Source: Nocardia asteroides
GTDB lineage: Bacteria; Actinomycetota; Actinomycetes; Mycobacteriales; Mycobacteriaceae
NCBI GenBank assembly: GCA_019930625.1
Contig: CP082844.1
Span: 3,720,001-3,784,000 of the forward strand
Reading direction: 5' to 3'
Length of the DNA: 64,000 nt
A model generated the notes under the pieces. The model saw only the letters and a list, made by a program, of their open reading frames with translations. It was not told where the DNA came from and made no database searches. Of this stretch, positions 41,056-49,699 are shown in pieces (the first letter of the stretch is position 1; the number at the start of each line of letters is the position of its first letter). The position numbers were made by a program, and so were the translations under genes.

Positions 41056-41140
41056 ACCGCGATGCGAAGAAGCGGATGGGTTCGAGGTCGGGTTTCCGAC
41101 CGTAGACAACCTCTGGATCGTCAGGTGAAGCCGCACCTGG

Positions 41141-41743
41141 CTAGTCCGCATCAGCCTGCTGAAGCTCGCGAATCAGAACGTCGAACTGCGGGGCGCCAAG
41201 CCAGCTCGGGCGCAGAGTGCCGACCCGGTACCACCCCCACCGGCGATACTTGTCATACGCCCGGTGATTATCCGGGCGAACCAGCAATGTCGCGCGCCGC
41301 TCGGGCCGGAACGCGAGCAGTTCGTCATGCAGGGCGCGCGCGATACCCTTCCCGGTGAACTGTGCGCGCACCATGATCTCGCTGAACGCGAATGTGCGAG
41401 AGCCGTTCTCGGCAGTGAAGGCCGCCCGGTCGCCTTCGTCGAGCCTCAGCCCGTCCCACCACGCGGTGTGGGCGTTGAGCGGCCAACCCCACGCCTGGCC
41501 GCAGAACTCACCGTCCAAGCGGGCGATTACCAACTCGAACCCACCGGCGCGGGCAGGGTCGGTGTAGGCATCGAATCGGTGCATAAACGACTCGGGGGAT
41601 TCGAACTCTCCGCCGGACTCGATCGTATCGACGTAGGAGTCGCGGAAGATGCGTTCTACTTCATCGCGGAGTTCGCGGGCCTGTGCGGCGGTGTAGTGCT
41701 GGAAGTCGATGCCGTCTGCCGCCGGGGACTGCTCGGGCTTCAC
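41141..41743 (-). CDS. GNAT-family acetyltransferase
   Basis: A 200-residue GNAT-like protein. FAFSEIMVRAQFTGKGIARALHDELLA contains the acetyl-CoA pyrophosphate loop (Q/RxxGxG/A as QFTGKGIA), then RATLLVRPDNHRAYDKYRRWGWYRVG, the usual C-terminal strand-helix. The long N-terminal part carries the acceptor site, which cannot be predicted. Its start overlaps the stop of the XRE regulator gene by 4 bp. GNAT proteins coupled to this XRE-TPR regulator type are common in actinobacteria, with unknown targets. Confidence 0.85.
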   Translation of the reverse strand: MKPEQSPAADGIDFQHYTAAQARELRDEVERIFRDSYVDTIESGGEFESPESFMHRFDAYTDPARAGGFELVIARLDGEFCGQAWGWPLNAHTAWWDGLRLDEGDRAAFTAENGSRTFAFSEIMVRAQFTGKGIARALHDELLAFRPERRATLLVRPDNHRAYDKYRRWGWYRVGTLRPSWLGAPQFDVLIRELQQADAD

Positions 41744-43080
41744 GCAGGAACAACCTTCCCCGCCAGTTCGTCGAAACGGGTTGTGAACTCATCGAAACGG
41801 CCTTCTGCCGCGACGCGCACCGAATCCAGCCGGCGCAGGGTGCGAATGGAAGACACGGAACCTTCAAGGTCGGCCAGAACGGAGATCCCTTGCTCGACGG
41901 CAGCGTCGATTTCGCCGATCTCTGCTAGCGCCGTCGCCGAGCCTGCCCGGTAGCACGCCGAGTTTCGAGCTCCAGCCTGTTCCAGAACAAGGCCGGCGTG
42001 CAGGTCGGCGGACTTCGCGTAGTCGCCGAAATGTCCATATGCGCAGGCTTCGTGGTACCTGATTTCGCTGTTGTTGACGAATCGCACCCATGACGGGCAT
42101 TCGTCGTGCGCCTCGTAGTCGAGCGCAAAATCGAGTTCCCGCCATGCTGTAGCGATGGATTTACCGAACGCGGCCCGGTCGCCGAGAATCCCGTACGCTT
42201 GCGCCTCGCGTGTGGCGATGAGGGCATGGATAAGGCCGGGTGCGTCGCCACGGGTGAGTTCCCGGGCGCGGTCGGAGAGGTTGAGCGCGTGATGGGGGTT
42301 CGCCTCTCCGCTGCGCTCACGGGATACCGCCAGCAGTGCGGCGTTCAAACACACGTGTACGGTGAGCGCGTCGTTGCCTGCCTGGTTCGCCAAACCGAAT
42401 GCGTCGGCGTAGCAGCGACGGGCGAGTGGGTACAGTTCGGAGTCGTACGCCAGCCATCCGGCGATGGTCGCGAGTTCTCCTGTGGCGCTCATGAATGCGC
42501 GGCCGGCGTTTTCGGAGAAAGCGCACGTGTCGAGCAGGCGCTTCGCAGCTTCGAGCGCTTGGACGGCATCTTGCACCAGCGCCGCGCCGCCGATTTCCTG
42601 TTCGCGGTGGCACAGGTAGGCGGCGAAATCATCGAGTCGCCGCGCGTCGGCGACGCCGATGCGAGCCGGAGCCGCATCACCATCGGCGCTTGCCGCTAGC
42701 ATTGCGGCTCCCATCAGCATTCCGAATTCGCGTCGCTTCACATCAACCTCGGTTTCCGCCGTGCTGTGTTGGCCGCCCACAACCAGGTTATCGCCCGCCG
42801 CCTCGGTGGGGCGTTGGCGAGCGAGCGGTATCGCGGCGTCGCGCAGGTCGTGGACCTCGGCTCGAAAGCGGGCACGCTGTTCGTCTGTGAGCCGAGCGAG
42901 TTCGGTGTCCAATGCGCTTGCGGAGTCATTGCGTACTGGCTTGTCCGCGGTGGCGCGCTCCCACTTGCGGATCGTCGCAACCTGAAAGCCTGTTCGTTCC
43001 GCGAACTGCTCCTGCGTCAGCCGAAGGGCCGCCGAGCGCAGCGCCTTGACTTCGACCTTCGTCCATTTGTTGACGATCAT
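41740..43080 (-). CDS. XRE-family regulator with C-terminal TPR-like domain
   Basis: A 446-residue regulator. The N-terminal helix-turn-helix reads LTQEQFAERTGFQVATIRKWERA (about 20-45), and a long alpha-helical TPR-like sensor follows (about 130-440), with repeats such as CFLNAALLAVSRERSGEANPHHAL-type and ACAYGHFGDYAKSADLHAGL. ATG 43080 has AGGGGG 5 nt upstream. The layout resembles Streptomyces XRE-TPR regulators. It is coupled to the GNAT gene and divergent from three small unknown genes, and it may control both sides through the 189-bp gap. Confidence 0.85.
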   Translation of the reverse strand: MIVNKWTKVEVKALRSAALRLTQEQFAERTGFQVATIRKWERATADKPVRNDSASALDTELARLTDEQRARFRAEVHDLRDAAIPLARQRPTEAAGDNLVVGGQHSTAETEVDVKRREFGMLMGAAMLAASADGDAAPARIGVADARRLDDFAAYLCHREQEIGGAALVQDAVQALEAAKRLLDTCAFSENAGRAFMSATGELATIAGWLAYDSELYPLARRCYADAFGLANQAGNDALTVHVCLNAALLAVSRERSGEANPHHALNLSDRARELTRGDAPGLIHALIATREAQAYGILGDRAAFGKSIATAWRELDFALDYEAHDECPSWVRFVNNSEIRYHEACAYGHFGDYAKSADLHAGLVLEQAGARNSACYRAGSATALAEIGEIDAAVEQGISVLADLEGSVSSIRTLRRLDSVRVAAEGRFDEFTTRFDELAGKVVPA

Positions 43081-43269
43081 CCTCACCCCCTGATTCCCCT
43101 GCAATGCATGGTGGCGCAAGCGTATTACGTCTATGCGGCTTCTATGGCTGGGATCACATGCCGAACATGGCGAAGCTGAAGGCAGCCCCACCGCCGGGTC
43201 GAATCGGACCTACACGGACTCCCCGGCGGTGGGTGCCTACCACGTTGAACCAGGCGGAGGGACACCCGA

Positions 43270-43761
43270 ATGAGTTCGCCGAACGACATCCAGGACACGC
43301 CGTTGTCGGTGTGCCATTTCTACCGAAAGGTGTGTGATCTGCCCGCTGAAGTAGACCCGCCGCATACGGGGCGGATCGTGATCCGAACCGGCGTTGTGTG
43401 CGGGCTGATGATGCCAGCCTTCATCGGCTCTGAAGTGAAGATGCGGATGCAGTGCCACGGCCAGCAGGTCGGCCCGATTCTGACGCATCCGCGTTCGCAA
43501 AGCTGGACATTCCTGGCGTGTGCGGACCTCCCGGACGCGATCGGGTTGTTCGCAGAGATGTCGCGGTTGCAGGTCTCCATCATCTGTGGCGGAGGGATCA
43601 TTGCCCTACCTGGCCCGGGCCAGCGCCCGGGTTTTTTCCGTGCGTGGGTGCAGCCGCCGCGCGACCCGTTCCGCCCGTCCGGGACTGCCGTGATCGATGC
43701 GATTCGGGGATGTGTTGTGCAGCGTGCGAGCAAGCGGCGGGGCCTGGTGAACCATGTCTGA
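43270..43761 (+). CDS. Hypothetical protein, 163 residues
   Basis: A good ribosome-binding site (GGAGGG, 8 nt) precedes ATG 43270. The protein is Cys-containing and mostly beta, with GRIVIRTGVVCGLMMPAFIGSEV and CADLPDAIGLFAEMSRLQVSIICGGG. It ends in a basic tail. I do not recognise a named domain. Similar genes sit beside XRE-TPR regulators in other actinobacteria. Its stop overlaps the next start by 8 bp, making it the first of three coupled genes. Confidence 0.65.
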   Translation: MSSPNDIQDTPLSVCHFYRKVCDLPAEVDPPHTGRIVIRTGVVCGLMMPAFIGSEVKMRMQCHGQQVGPILTHPRSQSWTFLACADLPDAIGLFAEMSRLQVSIICGGGIIALPGPGQRPGFFRAWVQPPRDPFRPSGTAVIDAIRGCVVQRASKRRGLVNHV

Positions 43762-44071
43762 TGGCGCGCACGGATGCGGTCCGGAATGCGAACCATGGAT
43801 CACCGCAACGCATTGTGGCGTGACGAAGTTCGATCACGCGACAGGTGAACTTCTGGCAGTGCGCTGCCCGTCGAAGACCTGCTGTGACCTCGTTGTGCCG
43901 CTCACTGCAGGCCGGATCGCACCGCATGCCGCTCCGGTCGGTGTGACTCGCAGCCGGTGCCCGTGGATCGGCATGCGTGTGGTTGATGACCGCAACCCGT
44001 TCCAGACCGGAGTCGCCGAGCTACACCCGACCGATCTGTGTACTCCTGGGGAAGGGCGGTCCGAGTCGTGA
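43754..44071 (+). CDS. Hypothetical Cys-rich protein, 105 residues
   Basis: A small soluble protein with Cys/His-rich segments: AHGCGPECEPWITATHCGV near the N-terminus and VRCPSKTCCDLVV in the middle, plus single Cys residues later. The spacing suggests metal binding, but no known zinc-ribbon signature is exact. It overlaps the preceding gene by 8 bp and the following gene by 4 bp, so the three form a tight operon. The function is unknown. Confidence 0.6.
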   Translation: MSDGAHGCGPECEPWITATHCGVTKFDHATGELLAVRCPSKTCCDLVVPLTAGRIAPHAAPVGVTRSRCPWIGMRVVDDRNPFQTGVAELHPTDLCTPGEGRSES

Positions 44072-44364
44072 ACTACGACGCCCGATATGAGGCGGAAATC
44101 GACGTGCTCATGGACGTGCTGACAGCGCTCGCCAACACCGCCGAGCGACCCGCCGACTGCAATCTGAGCGAGGCCGACCGTGTGCGCCTGTTCGCCGTGG
44201 TGCTGTACGAGCTGATCGTCAGTGCGCGTAGCGTGGCCGGCCCCGACGCCGGACGGTTGTACGCCGCGCCGATCCTGGACCCGATAATCGAAGGTGTCGT
44301 CGAGGAGGTGACGCCGTTGGATCTGCTGATATCAGCGCTCCTCGTCCACCAGACCCCGACATAG
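44068..44364 (+). CDS. Hypothetical helical protein, 98 residues
   Basis: GTG 44068 overlaps the preceding stop (GTGA). The protein is predicted almost entirely helical, with AEIDVLMDVLTALANTAERPAD and VRLFAVVLYELIVSARSVAG, and lacks Cys clusters or signal peptide apart from one Cys. It is the last gene of the three-gene unit divergent from the XRE regulator. No family was recognised. The 79 bp after it precede the convergent NgoMIV-like gene. Confidence 0.55.
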   Translation: MNYDARYEAEIDVLMDVLTALANTAERPADCNLSEADRVRLFAVVLYELIVSARSVAGPDAGRLYAAPILDPIIEGVVEEVTPLDLLISALLVHQTPT

Positions 44365-44443
44365 AGGTGTCGAATTGCCGTGGATCGCAAAGATCGCGCC
44401 TCGATCGATCTGCGAAGATGCCTTAGTCACTCGGTCTATCGAG

Positions 44444-45331
44444 TCAAGAATTTTCTTCGCTCCCCGCGATCGCTGACTGATAGATAGGTAGGCGCCTAAT
44501 CTCGTCAACTAGGTCTTGATACGGACGAACGCGCCGCTGTGCGACCATCCGCTCGAGGTTGACTCTAGGCAGCCAGATTCCGCCGCGCTGTGCTTCGATG
44601 GCTTGAGCGGCGATGCGAAGCTCAGGCAACGCCAGATGATATACGCAGTCGACAGCACCCGATCCGTACGCGATGAGTTTCAGCATCGCAGGACGCGGCT
44701 CCATCGTCAGAACTGCATAGTGAGGCATGTGCCCTCGGCGTAGATTGACCAGTTTCGCGCCCTGGGAGACGCAATCCTGGGCTCGGTCGGTGCGAAGGGT
44801 CCACTTAGAGGACAAGCCGACAAGCAACCGAGCCGGCGTGTTCGGCGCACTGACGGTGATGTCAATCTTGAGCATCGATTCCTCGGGCATTGTGCCCACG
44901 AGCTGAGACACAAGGCCGTGGTTCTCTTGGACGCCTTCTCTCACGGCTTGAAGGCGAACCGTGAGGTCGGTGATCGCGGGAGATGGGGGTAGCTGCTGTA
45001 GGTCTCGGAGGACGAGTTCCAGCTCGTCGGTCGGTTGGCGATATGACTTCTGGAACTGGCGAAACACGCCGAGGTGGCGGTACTGCTCGAAATCCATCGC
45101 TGGCCTGGACTGTCGAATAGCCAGGTCCGGTCGCACTGATTTCAGGTGCTCCGCAGCGGCGTTCTCCATCATCCTGCCGACATTGGGAATCTCATGTCTC
45201 CCCGGCTCTACGCCAAGAGTCTGGAACATTGCGTGACCCCATTCGATCGACCCGGCATCGTTGTTGTCAGACGTCGACGGGTTGCCGTTGCGACGGTAGC
45301 CGCAAAGTGCGGCTGCGAATGGTGCGGTCAC
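44444..45331 (-). CDS. NgoMIV-like type II restriction endonuclease
   Basis: A 295-residue enzyme of the NgoMIV family (CCGG-group PD-(D/E)XK nucleases). Alignment from memory to NgoMIV (G^CCGGC) matches the N-terminal Ser/Asn/Asp-rich stretch, a helix Glu near 56 (GRMMENAAAEH), the catalytic Asp near 157 in LKIDITVSA, and the diagnostic SSKWTLRTDRAQD (Ser-x-Lys near 174-176). Late similarity is AYGSGAVDCVYHLALPELR. The start at 45331 is preferred because similarity begins at the first residues. It should cleave GCCGGC or a closely related CCGG-type site. Its visibly lower G+C suggests transfer. Confidence 0.85.
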   Translation of the reverse strand: MTAPFAAALCGYRRNGNPSTSDNNDAGSIEWGHAMFQTLGVEPGRHEIPNVGRMMENAAAEHLKSVRPDLAIRQSRPAMDFEQYRHLGVFRQFQKSYRQPTDELELVLRDLQQLPPSPAITDLTVRLQAVREGVQENHGLVSQLVGTMPEESMLKIDITVSAPNTPARLLVGLSSKWTLRTDRAQDCVSQGAKLVNLRRGHMPHYAVLTMEPRPAMLKLIAYGSGAVDCVYHLALPELRIAAQAIEAQRGGIWLPRVNLERMVAQRRVRPYQDLVDEIRRLPIYQSAIAGSEENS

Positions 45332-45678
45332 GGTACAACCATGCCAGCTGCGAACCGGATTAGCGGCACCACCCCTCGGTCGTGGTGGTTGACGTCGACA
45401 TCGGTGCGCTCACGGTGTCCTCCGTCAGCATGGAAAGCTCGGCATCAGTCCCGTGGAGGCGTGATGGCACCGTCTGTACTGAGACCGTTGCCGGTCCCTG
45501 GGTGGTGGCGGCAGTGGCACCCCGCAGGCGTACGCGTACCCGCAACGTGGCGTACTGGTCGCAGCCCACGGGGTCCATCAAGATCGACGGGATCCGAGAT
45601 GCTCCCGCTCGATGAGGTTGTGCCTGTGGGGGATACAAAAGCCTCGGGAAGTCGGAAACGTCAGGAGGGCGCTATGCC
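45332..45678. other. 347-bp gap between the two restriction enzyme genes
   Basis: This is a divergent region that should hold promoters for both endonuclease genes. Short frames occur on both strands (minus 45360-45638, plus 45382-45615, and a 27-codon plus frame from ATG 45599 whose stop overlaps the NaeI-like start). None has convincing support. The last one could couple translation to the NaeI-like gene. Confidence 0.4.
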
Positions 45679-46653
45679 TTGAGTTACGTTCCTACGGTGA
45701 GTGACCCAAGTGCGTTGTTTGAAGTTCAGACTCCATCCCAGCCTCGATCAGTCTCGAAGCCTGCTGGCGAGGATGCAGGCTTGGATGAGGTCGTAGCGTG
45801 GTTTCGAGGTCAAAAGAACCTAGAGGCGCGTTTCGCTGCGGTTTTCCGACAAGCTCTCGACGAAGTTCTCGACGGACAGCGAACCGGTCGGTTTGATATT
45901 AATCAGCTTGCGAAGACCGAAAAGACCTATCTCGGCACCAAGGTTGAGATCGTTGTACGCGCTGCCTTCGAGCTTTCTCCCGGTGACCGCATGGACTACA
46001 AAGTTGCAGGCCATGACATCGATGCCAAGTTCTCCTTGTCCGGCGGGTGGGCGATACCGACTGAAGCCATGGGGCATCTCTGCCTGCTCATGGCAGCAAA
46101 TGATCACAAGGGCGTGTTCGACGTGGGCATCATGCGAATACGAGCGGACGTGCTGAACAAGGGCTTCAATAAGGATGGCAAGACAACGATCACCAAGAAT
46201 GCTAGGGAGTCCATCGTCTGGTTGGCTCGAAACTCCTCCCTACCGCGCAACTTGCTGCTCTCGCTTCCGGAGAACGACGTCAAGCAAATCATGGGTGCCA
46301 GGTCAGGGCAGCAGCGGATCAATGAGTTGCTGCGTCGCGTGCAAGGAGTGATTATCGATCGCAACACGGCCGTGACGGTGGCTCAGCAGCATGACGGATT
46401 GAAGCGGTGCCGCGACGCACGTCCGGTACTGCGTCGGGAGGGTATTGCAGTCCTGGGTCATCAAAAAGACAGCCCGAGGATTGCTCGAGGGTTAGAACTG
46501 CCGGTACCGGCGAAGGGTAATTTTATCGCCGTTCGGCTTGTTCGTGTCGCCGACGGTGCTGTTGGTCGACCAGCAGTACTGATAGGTGGGCACCGCTATG
46601 TCGCAGCGCATCCCGAGGAGCCACTTGAGTACCTTCCGGACATCCTTTATTGA
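45679..46653 (+). CDS. NaeI-like type II restriction endonuclease
   Basis: A 324-residue member of the NaeI family. The N-terminal endonuclease domain has DEVLDGQRTGRFDINQLAKT and TEKTYLGTKVEI. The catalytic motif MDYKVAGHDIDAKFS follows (Asp 106, Asp 115, Lys 117), then GWAIPTEAMGHLCLLMAAND. The C-terminal effector domain has ARSGQQRINELLRRVQG and AVLGHQKDSPRIARGLELPVP. NaeI itself recognises GCC^GGC and needs a second site as effector, with topoisomerase-like behaviour when mutated. TTG 45679 has GGAGG about 10 nt upstream; GTG 45697 is possible. It converges on the methyltransferase gene with a 7-bp overlap of ends. Confidence 0.9.
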   Translation: MSYVPTVSDPSALFEVQTPSQPRSVSKPAGEDAGLDEVVAWFRGQKNLEARFAAVFRQALDEVLDGQRTGRFDINQLAKTEKTYLGTKVEIVVRAAFELSPGDRMDYKVAGHDIDAKFSLSGGWAIPTEAMGHLCLLMAANDHKGVFDVGIMRIRADVLNKGFNKDGKTTITKNARESIVWLARNSSLPRNLLLSLPENDVKQIMGARSGQQRINELLRRVQGVIIDRNTAVTVAQQHDGLKRCRDARPVLRREGIAVLGHQKDSPRIARGLELPVPAKGNFIAVRLVRVADGAVGRPAVLIGGHRYVAAHPEEPLEYLPDILY

Positions 46654-47837
46654 TGCCCGTCGCACAACCGGCACGACGGCCGCCTTGACTTCTTTTTGCC
46701 CTGCTCTCCGGCCGTGCCACGCAGGTACGGCTTGAGGTGGTGAGCGATGGCCTCCGCGAGTATGGGCGGAACGGCGTTGCCGATCTGCTTTGCGACCTCG
46801 ATCTTGCTGCCGCACCAACCGAACGAGTCGGGGAAGCTTTGCAGACGTGCTGCCTCATAGTGGGTGATCGGGCGATCCACGCTTCGGTCTGGATCGTGCC
46901 GGTCCCATTGAGGATGCAGGTACTGACCCTTCTCTGGCTTGTAAAACTCGGTCCGAATCGTGAGAGATGGCATATCCCACCGCATACGGCCCATGACGTC
47001 GGTCGTGCCGGTCTTCTTCTCCCTCCAGCACCGCGACAACAAGTGGTCCGGCAGATCGAATCGGCCACCGCCGGGCGGGATATGGCGATAGCGCTGCAGA
47101 GACAGGGCCGTCGGATTGCGTCCAATGTGTAGTTCCGGAGTCTTGAACACCCCTCGTACTCTCTCGCCGAAGACCTGAATCCAGGAGTCGGGCAGTTCCC
47201 GAGTCGGAGGGACCTCGGGGAGACCTGCCAACACATCACTAGTCGTATGCCAGGCTGGCTCGTCTCCCATAGAGCCAGGTCGGCGATGCGTCGGGTTCGG
47301 CAGGGGGATCGAACCGATACGTGATCCGATGACAATCGTCCGCTTGCGCCGCTGTGGAACGCCGAAGTCGGCAGCCAGCAGTAACCCGGACTCTAGGTGA
47401 TACTCCTCCAACAACCCTCCAGGCCGCGCTTCGGCTTGGAGGAGGGCGAACTCGCTGGAGGAGAAAAACCGATCGACGTTCTCGATGACAAAGACCTTCG
47501 GGTGGGCGTGGCGGACGAAGCGGATGTACTCCTTCCACAGCTTGTTTCGTGGGTCGTCCACGTTCTTTGAGCCGAGGTTGGAGAAGCCCTGGCATGGGGG
47601 CCCGCCGATGACGATGTCGGCTTGCGGGATCTCGTCATCGCCTATATCGGCGATGTCGGCGTAGTGGGTGTGGCCCTCACCGAAGTTCAGTGCATAGGTT
47701 GCTGCCGCCTCCAGGTTGAACTCCACCGCCATGACGGGCTTATAGCCCTTAGCGGCCGCAAAGCCTGAGGTCATTCCGCCGCAGCCTGCGAACAAGTCGA
47801 TCATCGTTAAGGATCGTGAACCCACGGTTCGAGACAT
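46647..47837 (-). CDS. DNA (cytosine-5)-methyltransferase
   Basis: A 396-residue C5-methyltransferase. Motif I is DLFAGCGGMTSGF, motif IV GGPPCQGFSNLGS (catalytic Cys near 82), motif VI ENVDRF, motif VIII QRRKRTIVIG, then a target-recognition region about 225-310 and motifs IX/X (YEAARLQSFPDSF, KQIGNAVPP). It is the only methyltransferase in the locus and presumably protects the GCCGGC-type site of both flanking endonucleases. The ATG overlaps the stop of a 21-codon upstream ORF (TAATG). A perfect 26-bp palindrome lies about 80 bp upstream, suggesting feedback control. Confidence 0.95.
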   Translation of the reverse strand: MSRTVGSRSLTMIDLFAGCGGMTSGFAAAKGYKPVMAVEFNLEAAATYALNFGEGHTHYADIADIGDDEIPQADIVIGGPPCQGFSNLGSKNVDDPRNKLWKEYIRFVRHAHPKVFVIENVDRFFSSSEFALLQAEARPGGLLEEYHLESGLLLAADFGVPQRRKRTIVIGSRIGSIPLPNPTHRRPGSMGDEPAWHTTSDVLAGLPEVPPTRELPDSWIQVFGERVRGVFKTPELHIGRNPTALSLQRYRHIPPGGGRFDLPDHLLSRCWREKKTGTTDVMGRMRWDMPSLTIRTEFYKPEKGQYLHPQWDRHDPDRSVDRPITHYEAARLQSFPDSFGWCGSKIEVAKQIGNAVPPILAEAIAHHLKPYLRGTAGEQGKKKSRRPSCRLCDGHQ

Positions 47838-47902
47838 TAGCCGACCCCTCCGACAATCCGCCGGATTGCCTGTACAAGTTCGCTCCAGTGATTTGCTTGC
47901 AT
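47837..47902 (-). CDS. 21-residue upstream ORF coupled to the methyltransferase
   Basis: ATG 47902 has GGGGAG 5 nt upstream, the best ribosome-binding site of the locus. The peptide begins MQANHWSELVQAIRR and ends GGVG. Its TAA overlaps the methyltransferase ATG as TAATG, so translation of the enzyme is probably coupled to it. It starts 14 bp after the 26-bp palindrome. It may be only a translation-coupling leader or may have a function of its own. Confidence 0.6.
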   Translation of the reverse strand: MQANHWSELVQAIRRIVGGVG

Positions 47903-47915
47903 GTCATCTCCCCAA

Positions 47916-47941
47916 GTCAGAGGTGGATATCCACCTCTGAC
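47916..47941. promoter_or_regulatory. Perfect 26-bp palindromic operator O1
   Basis: The half-site GTCAGAGGTGGAT is followed immediately by its exact reverse complement. It lies in the divergent region between the methyltransferase leader and the RHH-like gene. The inner AGGTGGATATCCACCT is shared in part with a second site 35 bp away. Confidence 0.8.
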
Positions 47942-47956
47942 TGTATCGCATGCTTC

Positions 47957-47971
47957 GATGGATATCCACCT
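47957..47971. promoter_or_regulatory. Second operator-like site O2
   Basis: TGGATATCCACCT repeats 13 nt of O1, with the 10-bp palindrome TGGATATCCA at 47959-47968. The centres of O1 and O2 are 35 bp apart. O2 lies about 17 bp before the ATG of the RHH-like gene. Confidence 0.65.
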
Positions 47972-47987
47972 GTAGGATGGTGGAACC

Positions 47988-48188
47988 ATGCCCAGCCAAC
48001 ACCGCTTCCCTGCCGCGATCTACCGGGCCGACCCCCAGCTGCAACGAAGAGTGAAGATGGCTGTCAGTCAGTTGGATTCGGACGTCAACAGCCACATCGT
48101 GGCTTTCCTTCGCTGGCTGGTGCACGACACCGAAGAACTACCACCTCGACCAGCCAGGCCGGTACCGCGGATTGACGAGACAAAATGA
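47988..48188 (+). CDS. Ribbon-helix-helix-like small protein, candidate RM controller
   Basis: A 66-residue protein with a layout fitting a ribbon-helix-helix DNA-binding fold. There is a short strand (HRFPAAIYR), helix A (DPQLQRRVKMAVSQLD), a turn with S.VN and helix B (SHIVAFLRWLVHD), then a Pro/Arg tail. It is divergent from the methyltransferase, with two palindromic sites in between. GGATGGTGG precedes the ATG. This suggests a repressor or controller acting on the restriction-modification locus and on itself. The fold is inferred from pattern only. The 146 bp downstream hold no supported gene. Confidence 0.6.
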   Translation: MPSQHRFPAAIYRADPQLQRRVKMAVSQLDSDVNSHIVAFLRWLVHDTEELPPRPARPVPRIDETK

Positions 48189-48334
48189 GGGCGGGGTCCG
48201 AGATAGTGCCGCGATTCTGATTCGAACTGGTAGCTGGTCCTGAGTACTGCACCAGTGTGCGGCTGCGTCCGCTTCGCCTGTCGACGTCGCGCTCCTTGGC
48301 AACGCGAGGACCTCCGCAACACAGTTGAGGACGT

Positions 48335-49699
48335 TCAGGCCGACGGCGTGGTCAGCGCTGCGTTACGCAACCGCACCGTCACCGGGAGGTGGTTCACTTC
48401 CAGGGTCGCGCGCGCAACTTCGTGCACAGCAGCGCCCGGCACCAACTCCAGCCGCGCCCGCGCAACGACCGTAGCCAAAATGGCGACCGCTTCGTACCAC
48501 GCGAACGGTTCGCCGATGCAGTTTCGGTTGCCGAGGCCGAAGGGCTGGTATATCCCGGATCGGGTGACGGTCGTGCGGTATTCCGGCGTCCATCGGTCCG
48601 GGTCGAACCGGGCCGGATCGTCGAAGTGCTTCGGGTTGTTGTGCAGCGTGTACGGCGAGTAGAAGAGCGTGGTGCCCGCGGGGAGTGGGACTCCGCCGAG
48701 GTCGAGTTTCTCGATCGTCTCGCGTGTGCCGAGCCAGGTGGGAGCGTATCGGCGCAGTGTCTCTGCCATCACTCGTTCGGTGTATTGGAGACGCTGGATG
48801 TTGTCAGCGGTTACCGGGCCGCCGCGCAGCACCTCGGCGACTTCCTCTTCGACTCGCTCTCGCACGTCCGCGCGCCGCGCCAACTCGTAGAAGGCGAAAG
48901 CCATGGTGTTGGCTGTGGTTGCGAAACCCGCGGCGTAGAGCGTCATCACCTCGTCGTGGAGTTCTCGATCGGTGAGTCCGGTGCCGTCGTCGAAACGGGC
49001 TGTGAGCAGCATCGACACCAAGTCGCCGTAATCGGTTTCGCCTGCTCGGTATTCGGCGATGATGCGGTCGATCGCATCGGAGAGCCTGCGCACTGCGGCG
49101 TCGAAAGTGCGGTTGCGCAGTGGGATGTGCGCCAGCCACGGCAGCATGGTGCGTTTCGGTAGCTCGTCGACGATCACCGGAAACGAACGCAGCGACTCCG
49201 CGACCACCGCTTCGCCGAGTTCGCTGGCGAACAAAGCCTTCGCGACGATCCGCATAGCCAGCACCCGCAACCGGTCATCGAGCTCCAATCGCGCGCCGTC
49301 ACTCCAGCCGTCCACCATGGCATCGGCTTCCTGCTGCATGATCCGCACATAGTCGGCGATCTTCTCGTGGTGAAAGGCCGGTGCCATCAGGCGGCGATGC
49401 CGCAGGTGCTTGGGCTCGGCCGACACCGACAGACCATCGCCCAGCAGTGCGCGCATGGCCTCGAAGAACGCCCCCTTCTCGACGCTGTGCGCCTCCTTGC
49501 CGCGCAGCAACGAAACGATCAGCTCCGGCGCGGTCACCAGGTAGGCGTCTCTGCTGCCCAACCGGATGCGCGCCAACGGCTCCGGCGCCCGGTGCAGCTC
49601 GGCGAAGAATTCCAATGGCCTGCGTCGTAGGGTCAGGCCGTGACCGACGACCGGCCATGCTCGCTGGACCGGGCGGCCGACAGCCGTACGCGTACTCAT
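48335..49699 (-). CDS. Cytochrome P450 with altered I-helix
   Basis: A 454-residue P450. The heme-binding loop PFGLGNRNCIGEPFA is canonical (Cys near 394), and the K-helix ETLRRY keeps ExxR (313-316). The I-helix reads YAAGFATTANT: the two Thr are present, but the acidic residue of (A/G)GxD/ETT is Ala at 260. The N-terminus has the Pro-rich WPVVGHGLTLRRRPLEFF typical of soluble bacterial P450s of the CYP4/CYP102-related group. ATG 49699 has GAGGGG 6 nt upstream. No redox partner gene is adjacent. The substrate is unknown. Confidence 0.9.
   Translation of the reverse strand: MSTRTAVGRPVQRAWPVVGHGLTLRRRPLEFFAELHRAPEPLARIRLGSRDAYLVTAPELIVSLLRGKEAHSVEKGAFFEAMRALLGDGLSVSAEPKHLRHRRLMAPAFHHEKIADYVRIMQQEADAMVDGWSDGARLELDDRLRVLAMRIVAKALFASELGEAVVAESLRSFPVIVDELPKRTMLPWLAHIPLRNRTFDAAVRRLSDAIDRIIAEYRAGETDYGDLVSMLLTARFDDGTGLTDRELHDEVMTLYAAGFATTANTMAFAFYELARRADVRERVEEEVAEVLRGGPVTADNIQRLQYTERVMAETLRRYAPTWLGTRETIEKLDLGGVPLPAGTTLFYSPYTLHNNPKHFDDPARFDPDRWTPEYRTTVTRSGIYQPFGLGNRNCIGEPFAWYEAVAILATVVARARLELVPGAAVHEVARATLEVNHLPVTVRLRNAALTTPSA

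Follow-up and report, generated by a model that had tools for sequence, protein, structure and literature searches.

Two restriction endonuclease genes of the NgoMIV and NaeI families beside a single C5-methyltransferase gene in Nocardia asteroides: a candidate two-nuclease restriction system

Introduction

Type II restriction systems are generally taught as one cutter and one guard. NgoMIV (PF09015) is a Type IIF enzyme of the CCGG family that cuts G^CCGGC, and Kpn2I, also of the CCGG family, cuts T^CCGGA. The locus described here lies in a stretch of 64,000 nucleotides (the window) from the 7.4-Mb genome of Nocardia asteroides (assembly GCA_019930625.1, contig CP082844.1, positions 3,720,001 to 3,784,000 of the forward strand), where genes for an NgoMIV-like and a NaeI-like nuclease adjoin the gene of one C5-cytosine methyltransferase. 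Extracts of PMC4081073 assign NgoMIV (Type IIF) to the alpha branch of the fold and NaeI (Type IIE) to the beta branch. LlaJI and a cluster of Clostridium cellulovorans resemble the locus in having two restriction genes in one system; both have two methyltransferases, and the R proteins of LlaJI form a heterodimer (extracts of PMC11779793). Among the papers listed by literature searches, which did not extend to REBASE and most subscription papers, there was no description of a NaeI and NgoMIV pair, nor of two neoschizomers or two cutters under one methyltransferase.

At the level of sequence, the locus holds three genes of the named families, with an Asp...Lys core and an Arg-x-Asp-Arg motif in the NgoMIV-like protein and a complete predicted active site in the NaeI-like protein, and the trio recurs in the genomes of many other actinobacteria. 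We lean, with modest confidence, towards the reading that both nucleases cut unmethylated GCCGGC and that the one methyltransferase protects the host copies of this word.

The three genes and their products

The original prediction had placed divergent nuclease genes of the NgoMIV and NaeI families beside a single C5-methyltransferase, and gene coordinates, profile searches and structure matches all agree with it. The NgoMIV-family gene (44444-45331, minus strand, 295 amino acids) encodes a protein that matches PF09015 above the cut-off (81.8 bits) and 1fiu by sequence, and its predicted fold is the NgoMIV fold of 1fiu. An intergenic gap (45332-45678) separates it from the divergent NaeI-family gene (45679-46653, plus strand, 324 amino acids, TTG start), whose product matches PF09126 with 312.6 bits against a cut-off of 25. 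The only methyltransferase gene of the trio lies at 46647-47837 on the minus strand and encodes 396 amino acids; the product matches PF00145 with 196.9 bits against a cut-off of 22 and has the C5-methylase motifs PCQ, ENV and QRR.

The NgoMIV-like protein has an N-terminus common to its homologues and aligns to NgoMIV with Glu56 (codon 45164-45166, minus strand) at the place of Glu70, Asp157 at the catalytic Asp140, Ser174 at Ser185 and Lys176 at the catalytic Lys187. The CCGG-reading motif R-(D/E)R is present as Arg180, Asp182 and Arg183 (NgoMIV Arg191, Asp193 and Arg194), and Asp22 is retained at the place of Asp34. The protein differs from NgoMIV in having Gln190 (codon 44762-44764, minus strand) for Glu201 and Met216 for Arg227, with Arg213 three residues before Met216; proteins of this kind are called Gln-type below, and canonical ones Glu-type. 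Across 121 sequences, namely the window protein and the 120 homologues listed of 242 found, there is no variation at Glu56, Asp157, Ser174, Lys176, Arg180, Asp182, Arg183, Gln190, Arg213 or Met216. Glu-type members of the fetched loci differ at the last three of these places, with Glu at the first, Thr, Leu, Phe or Met at the second and Arg at the third. A tree of 91 rows, built without those three columns and without position 56, groups 9 Glu-type proteins (support 99), 77 Gln-type proteins with Glu56 (support 90) and 5 Gln-type proteins without it (support 96). On this tree the window protein belongs to a branch separate from canonical NgoMIV, which the original prediction had missed, and with the two substitutions it is not a plain NgoMIV.

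Gln at the Glu201 place has also been reported for the restriction enzyme Kpn2I, and PfoI loses about 50-fold in activity when its Glu113, which lies close to the Glu70 place, is replaced (extracts of PMC6344858). Since Gln is tolerated in Kpn2I and Glu56 is retained in the window, the window protein is plausibly active as a cutter; Gln-type proteins without both acids would probably cut much more weakly. The outer base pair is read in NgoMIV by Asp34 and Arg227 (extracts of PMC4652773).

The NaeI-like protein is similar to NaeI over its whole length, matching the profile at 15-286 of 288, across both domains, and covering residues 30-309 of the 317 in the 1ev7 chain. Its active-site residues are all kept as Glu90, Asp106, Asp115 and Lys117, for what we take to be Glu70, Asp86, Asp95 and Lys97 in NaeI numbering. 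In all 23 Gln-type loci with a NaeI-like partner, the active site of this partner is plausible, as Glu-Asp-Asp-Lys in 16, Gln-Asp-Asp-Lys in 1 and Gln-Asp-Glu-Lys in 6. The last form marks a divergent NaeI group (L014, L019, L020, L024, L025 and L027), and the Gln-type proteins encoded in the loci of this group are without Glu56.

Recurrence of the trio

The genome survey proposed with the original prediction found the arrangement to be recurrent. One genome per species was scanned with two peptide patterns of the Gln-branch, so that the counts describe this branch only; near relatives of the window genome were perhaps left out. The scan found 31 loci with a Gln-type gene, and 23 of them also have a NaeI-like gene. 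A second, Glu-type NgoMIV gene occurs in two others (L012 and L030), and in six neither partner adjoins the Gln-type gene (L006, L008, L013, L029, L031 and L032; assembly completeness is not stated for these genomes). Whole-genome search of L031 revealed a NaeI gene 22 kb off and a broken Gln-type gene. The other five genomes, searched whole, gave no PF09126 match and a single PF09015 gene each. L032 is a remnant with no methyltransferase in its locus; in the genomes of L006, L008, L013 and L029 the Gln-type gene is the only NgoMIV/NaeI-family nuclease gene and stands intact beside a methyltransferase gene. The 24 trios, window included, show eight gene arrangements. A NaeI tree of 49 rows comprises 24 paired with Gln-type, 4 paired with Glu-type and 21 unpaired members, among which L139 and L143 have an NgoMIV gene elsewhere in the genome. 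The label of pairing with a Gln-type gene changes 12 times on this tree, and at least eight changes are forced by well-supported branches; judged from the tree, pairing arose or ended repeatedly.

Wider surveys covered the order and the genus. Among 397 genomes of the order, PF09015 was present in 14, PF09126 in 25 (24 above the cut-off) and both in five, and in all five the two genes are at most 2.5 kb apart. Four of these five (G057, G071, G105 and G216) carry a Glu-type NgoMIV, which shows that pairing also occurs outside the Gln-branch. G105 and G216 have a C5-methyltransferase of the window clade nearby; no C5-methyltransferase of the searched kind was present in the 18 kb fetched around the pairs of G057 and G071 (L206 and L207). 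Among 59 genomes of the genus, PF09015 occurred in eight, PF09126 in six and both in two (one of them unlinked), no more than expected by chance (p = 0.18). The locus thus differs from LlaJI and BbvCI, in which both R proteins are needed, in that its R genes are not always together: the Gln-type gene is without partner in the four genomes named above, and NaeI occurs without PF09015 in 20 of the 25 genomes of the order. It differs from LlaJI and the C. cellulovorans cluster in that either nuclease family can also stand by itself beside a single methyltransferase.

In L206 and L207 the adjoining Glu-type NgoMIV and NaeI-like genes stand beside Druantia-like DruE and DruK. The best PADLOC model of the window methyltransferase is DruM2; a Druantia link was nevertheless rejected, relatives of DruE and DruK being found only in these two loci and not in the window or in L002-L032.

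The methyltransferase and the common target

A methyltransferase tree of 52 rows contains one clade of 37 rows (support 98), window included, that holds all six nuclease combinations: Gln-type with NaeI (23), Gln-type alone (4), NaeI alone (3), Glu-type alone (3), Gln-type with Glu-type (2) and Glu-type with NaeI (2). The target-recognition stretch is alike among the compared rows of this clade, and the Glu-type NgoMIV genes beside its members keep Arg227. NaeI alone, NgoMIV alone and pairs of the two thus all occur with methyltransferases of a single clade, for which a common word GCCGGC is the simplest explanation, and we infer, in line with the original prediction, that all three proteins share this target; a guard that recognises just the CCGG core would also match the clade pattern. 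A second clade of 14 rows accompanies canonical NgoMIV genes and prototype-like NaeI genes (L066, whose NaeI is identical to the solved NaeI over the residues compared), and is itself one guard type for both nuclease families. The window NaeI-like gene differs from that of L066 in having an NgoMIV-like partner and a methyltransferase of another clade. The single C5-type enzyme of the original prediction was confirmed; it lies outside the clade that accompanies canonical NgoMIV and prototype-like NaeI genes (37 versus 14 rows). The L022 methyltransferase is isolated by a very long branch, and the deep joins of this tree are unsure given the tree program's warning that long branches meet.

Proposed mechanism and alternative explanations

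For the preferred reading, that both nucleases cut GCCGGC, we infer every step from target to protection. The NgoMIV-like protein would cut before the first C as a tetramer bound to two sites, using a Gln active site like that of Kpn2I, and the NaeI-like protein would cut once a second site fills its effector domain. The methyltransferase would set the common target, one methylation blocking both nucleases, and cutters of either family could be added, lost or swapped behind it. The gain would be that an invader escaping or inhibiting one cutter still meets the other. Cutting by the NgoMIV-like protein is suggested by the Gln of Kpn2I and by the four genomes in which a Gln-type protein is the sole NgoMIV/NaeI-family nuclease.

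Several observations weigh against this reading. The catalytic Glu201 place has no acidic residue and the outer-base-pair Arg227 is replaced by Met in all 121 sequences. The Glu70 place is lost in 15 of the 31 Gln-type loci, and L025 has additionally lost the catalytic lysine. With 20 of the 25 NaeI genomes of the order lacking an NgoMIV gene, NaeI does not need NgoMIV. The window methyltransferase lies outside the 14-row clade of canonical NgoMIV and prototype-like NaeI, and its own 37-row clade includes, among the sequences of this analysis, no member of known specificity. GCCGGC is present in the host at 0.44 of expectation (400 kb), and at 0.42, 0.50 and 0.75 in three genus genomes with one or both families; the values in seven genus genomes with neither family are 0.38, 0.43, 0.46, 0.68, 0.71, 0.74 and 0.88. 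Avoidance was set aside as uninformative evidence of the target because the word is equally rare in some genomes without these genes.

Gln190 was read at first as the mark of a dead enzyme, a view weakened by the Kpn2I precedent and by the four genomes without another nuclease of these families, and kept as a rival. In its present form it holds that the NgoMIV-like protein no longer double-cuts but binds (or nicks) its sites, holding or bridging them and so aiding or restraining its NaeI-like neighbour, which we regard as unlikely. The replacement of Glu201 by Gln throughout the branch would suit such a role, as would the sub-branch that also lacks the Glu70 place, where no common acid within residues 52-60 serves as substitute, and the site-reading residues are still invariant. 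A complete nuclease accompanies the Gln-type gene at all 15 loci without Glu56 versus 10 of 15 with Glu56 kept (Fisher p = 0.042; the residue is missing in L032), a p-value that deserves little weight and is not independent evidence, since the loss of Glu56 is a single event on the tree. However, Kpn2I has Gln as well (extracts of PMC6344858), the window protein retains Glu56, Asp157 and Lys176, and four genomes carry a Gln-type protein without partner. A fixed complex is also disfavoured by the choice of partners, NaeI or (in L012 and L030) a Glu-type NgoMIV, which are unrelated to each other. It is similarly unlikely that the whole Gln-branch is on its way from restriction enzyme to non-cutting or nicking helper, losing its metal-site acids stepwise while still reading its site and becoming fixed next to a complete cutter (a NaeI or a Glu-type NgoMIV) protected by the same methylase; if true, this would be a two-protein restriction machine assembled from neoschizomers.

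That the NgoMIV-like protein cuts another CCGG-containing word, with the methyltransferase guarding a wider word such as CCGG, seems quite unlikely. The change of Arg227 to Met216, with Arg213 three residues earlier and Asp22 kept, could signal a different outer base pair, and the methyltransferase lies outside the clade of canonical GCCGGC-type systems; but the same methyltransferase clade accompanies NaeI-like genes and Glu-type NgoMIV genes that keep Arg227, and CCGG itself occurs in the host almost as often as expected (0.98). We consider a passenger role of the second nuclease very unlikely, in which such genes would accumulate without gain behind a compatible methyltransferase in a slot for defence exchange. 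The slot is indeed swapped in relatives (L202 and L205, described below), and interrupted or remnant Gln-type copies exist in L010, L022, L031 and L032. Against this stand the 27 of 31 loci with an uninterrupted Gln-type gene, the 25 of 31 that are paired, and the repeated origin or end of pairing.

Genomic setting and neighbouring features

The locus occupies an exchangeable chromosomal slot, with conserved flanks and differing cargo in three genus genomes (window 41060-48332; L202 5943-14703; L205 12202-16686). In G419 (L202) the flanks align at 91% and 87% identity, and the 7.3 kb with the locus is replaced by other genes, AAA and VWA genes included; the corresponding slot of G445 (L205) carries a C5-methyltransferase and an HNH nuclease. 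G+C is 0.59-0.62 in 2-kb windows across 43-49 kb, versus 0.64-0.73 in the rest of the window. Searches of plasmids gave no Gln-type relative above 60% identity (16 weaker matches), phages gave one weak Gln-type match, and NaeI-like genes were found on three plasmid records.

Self-regulation through GCCGGC in promoters was rejected, as no such site lies in the gaps between the trio genes, the divergent gap included; the two sites within 43800-48400 are at 44236 and 44832. Among 45 palindromes AAGCTT is the most under-represented in the 400-kb host sample (L088-L107), with 4 seen versus 22 expected, possibly a sign of a further restriction system there.

Upstream of the methyltransferase gene, positions 47915-47942 form a perfect inverted repeat of 28 bases with GATATC at its centre, and a second GGATATCC at 47960 (repeat region 47915-47968) stands beside a divergent frame of 66 amino acids (47988-48188). 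A related frame (68% over 59 amino acids) and two GGATATCC occupy the corresponding position beside the methyltransferase gene of L004 (Nocardia caishijiensis). At a guess, frame and repeat are a small regulator with its operator. As a dedicated controller the frame was rejected: it has matches in 11 of 59 genus genomes (its own included), but a methyltransferase is nearby only in the window (L190) and L200 among 12 loci fetched, and the frame is not claimed as part of the system. Vsr mismatch endonuclease genes lie beside the methyltransferase gene in L013 (6249-6722), L029 (10054-10515) and L031 (8854-9399) by Pfam match, with look-alikes by eye in L012 and L030; none was noticed adjoining the window trio.

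Implications

Overall, what stays constant in these systems seems to be the guard, with the cutters exchangeable, and two cutters with different cutting rules seem to have been joined repeatedly. The Gln-branch is a large natural branch of NgoMIV usable for active-site work. If one of the two nucleases has stopped cutting, the locus would show how a restriction enzyme becomes an accessory. If both cut, nature would offer a test of whether adding a nuclease with a different trigger increases protection at these same sites, and if both attack the same DNA word, Nocardia asteroides would have a two-layered defence against viruses.

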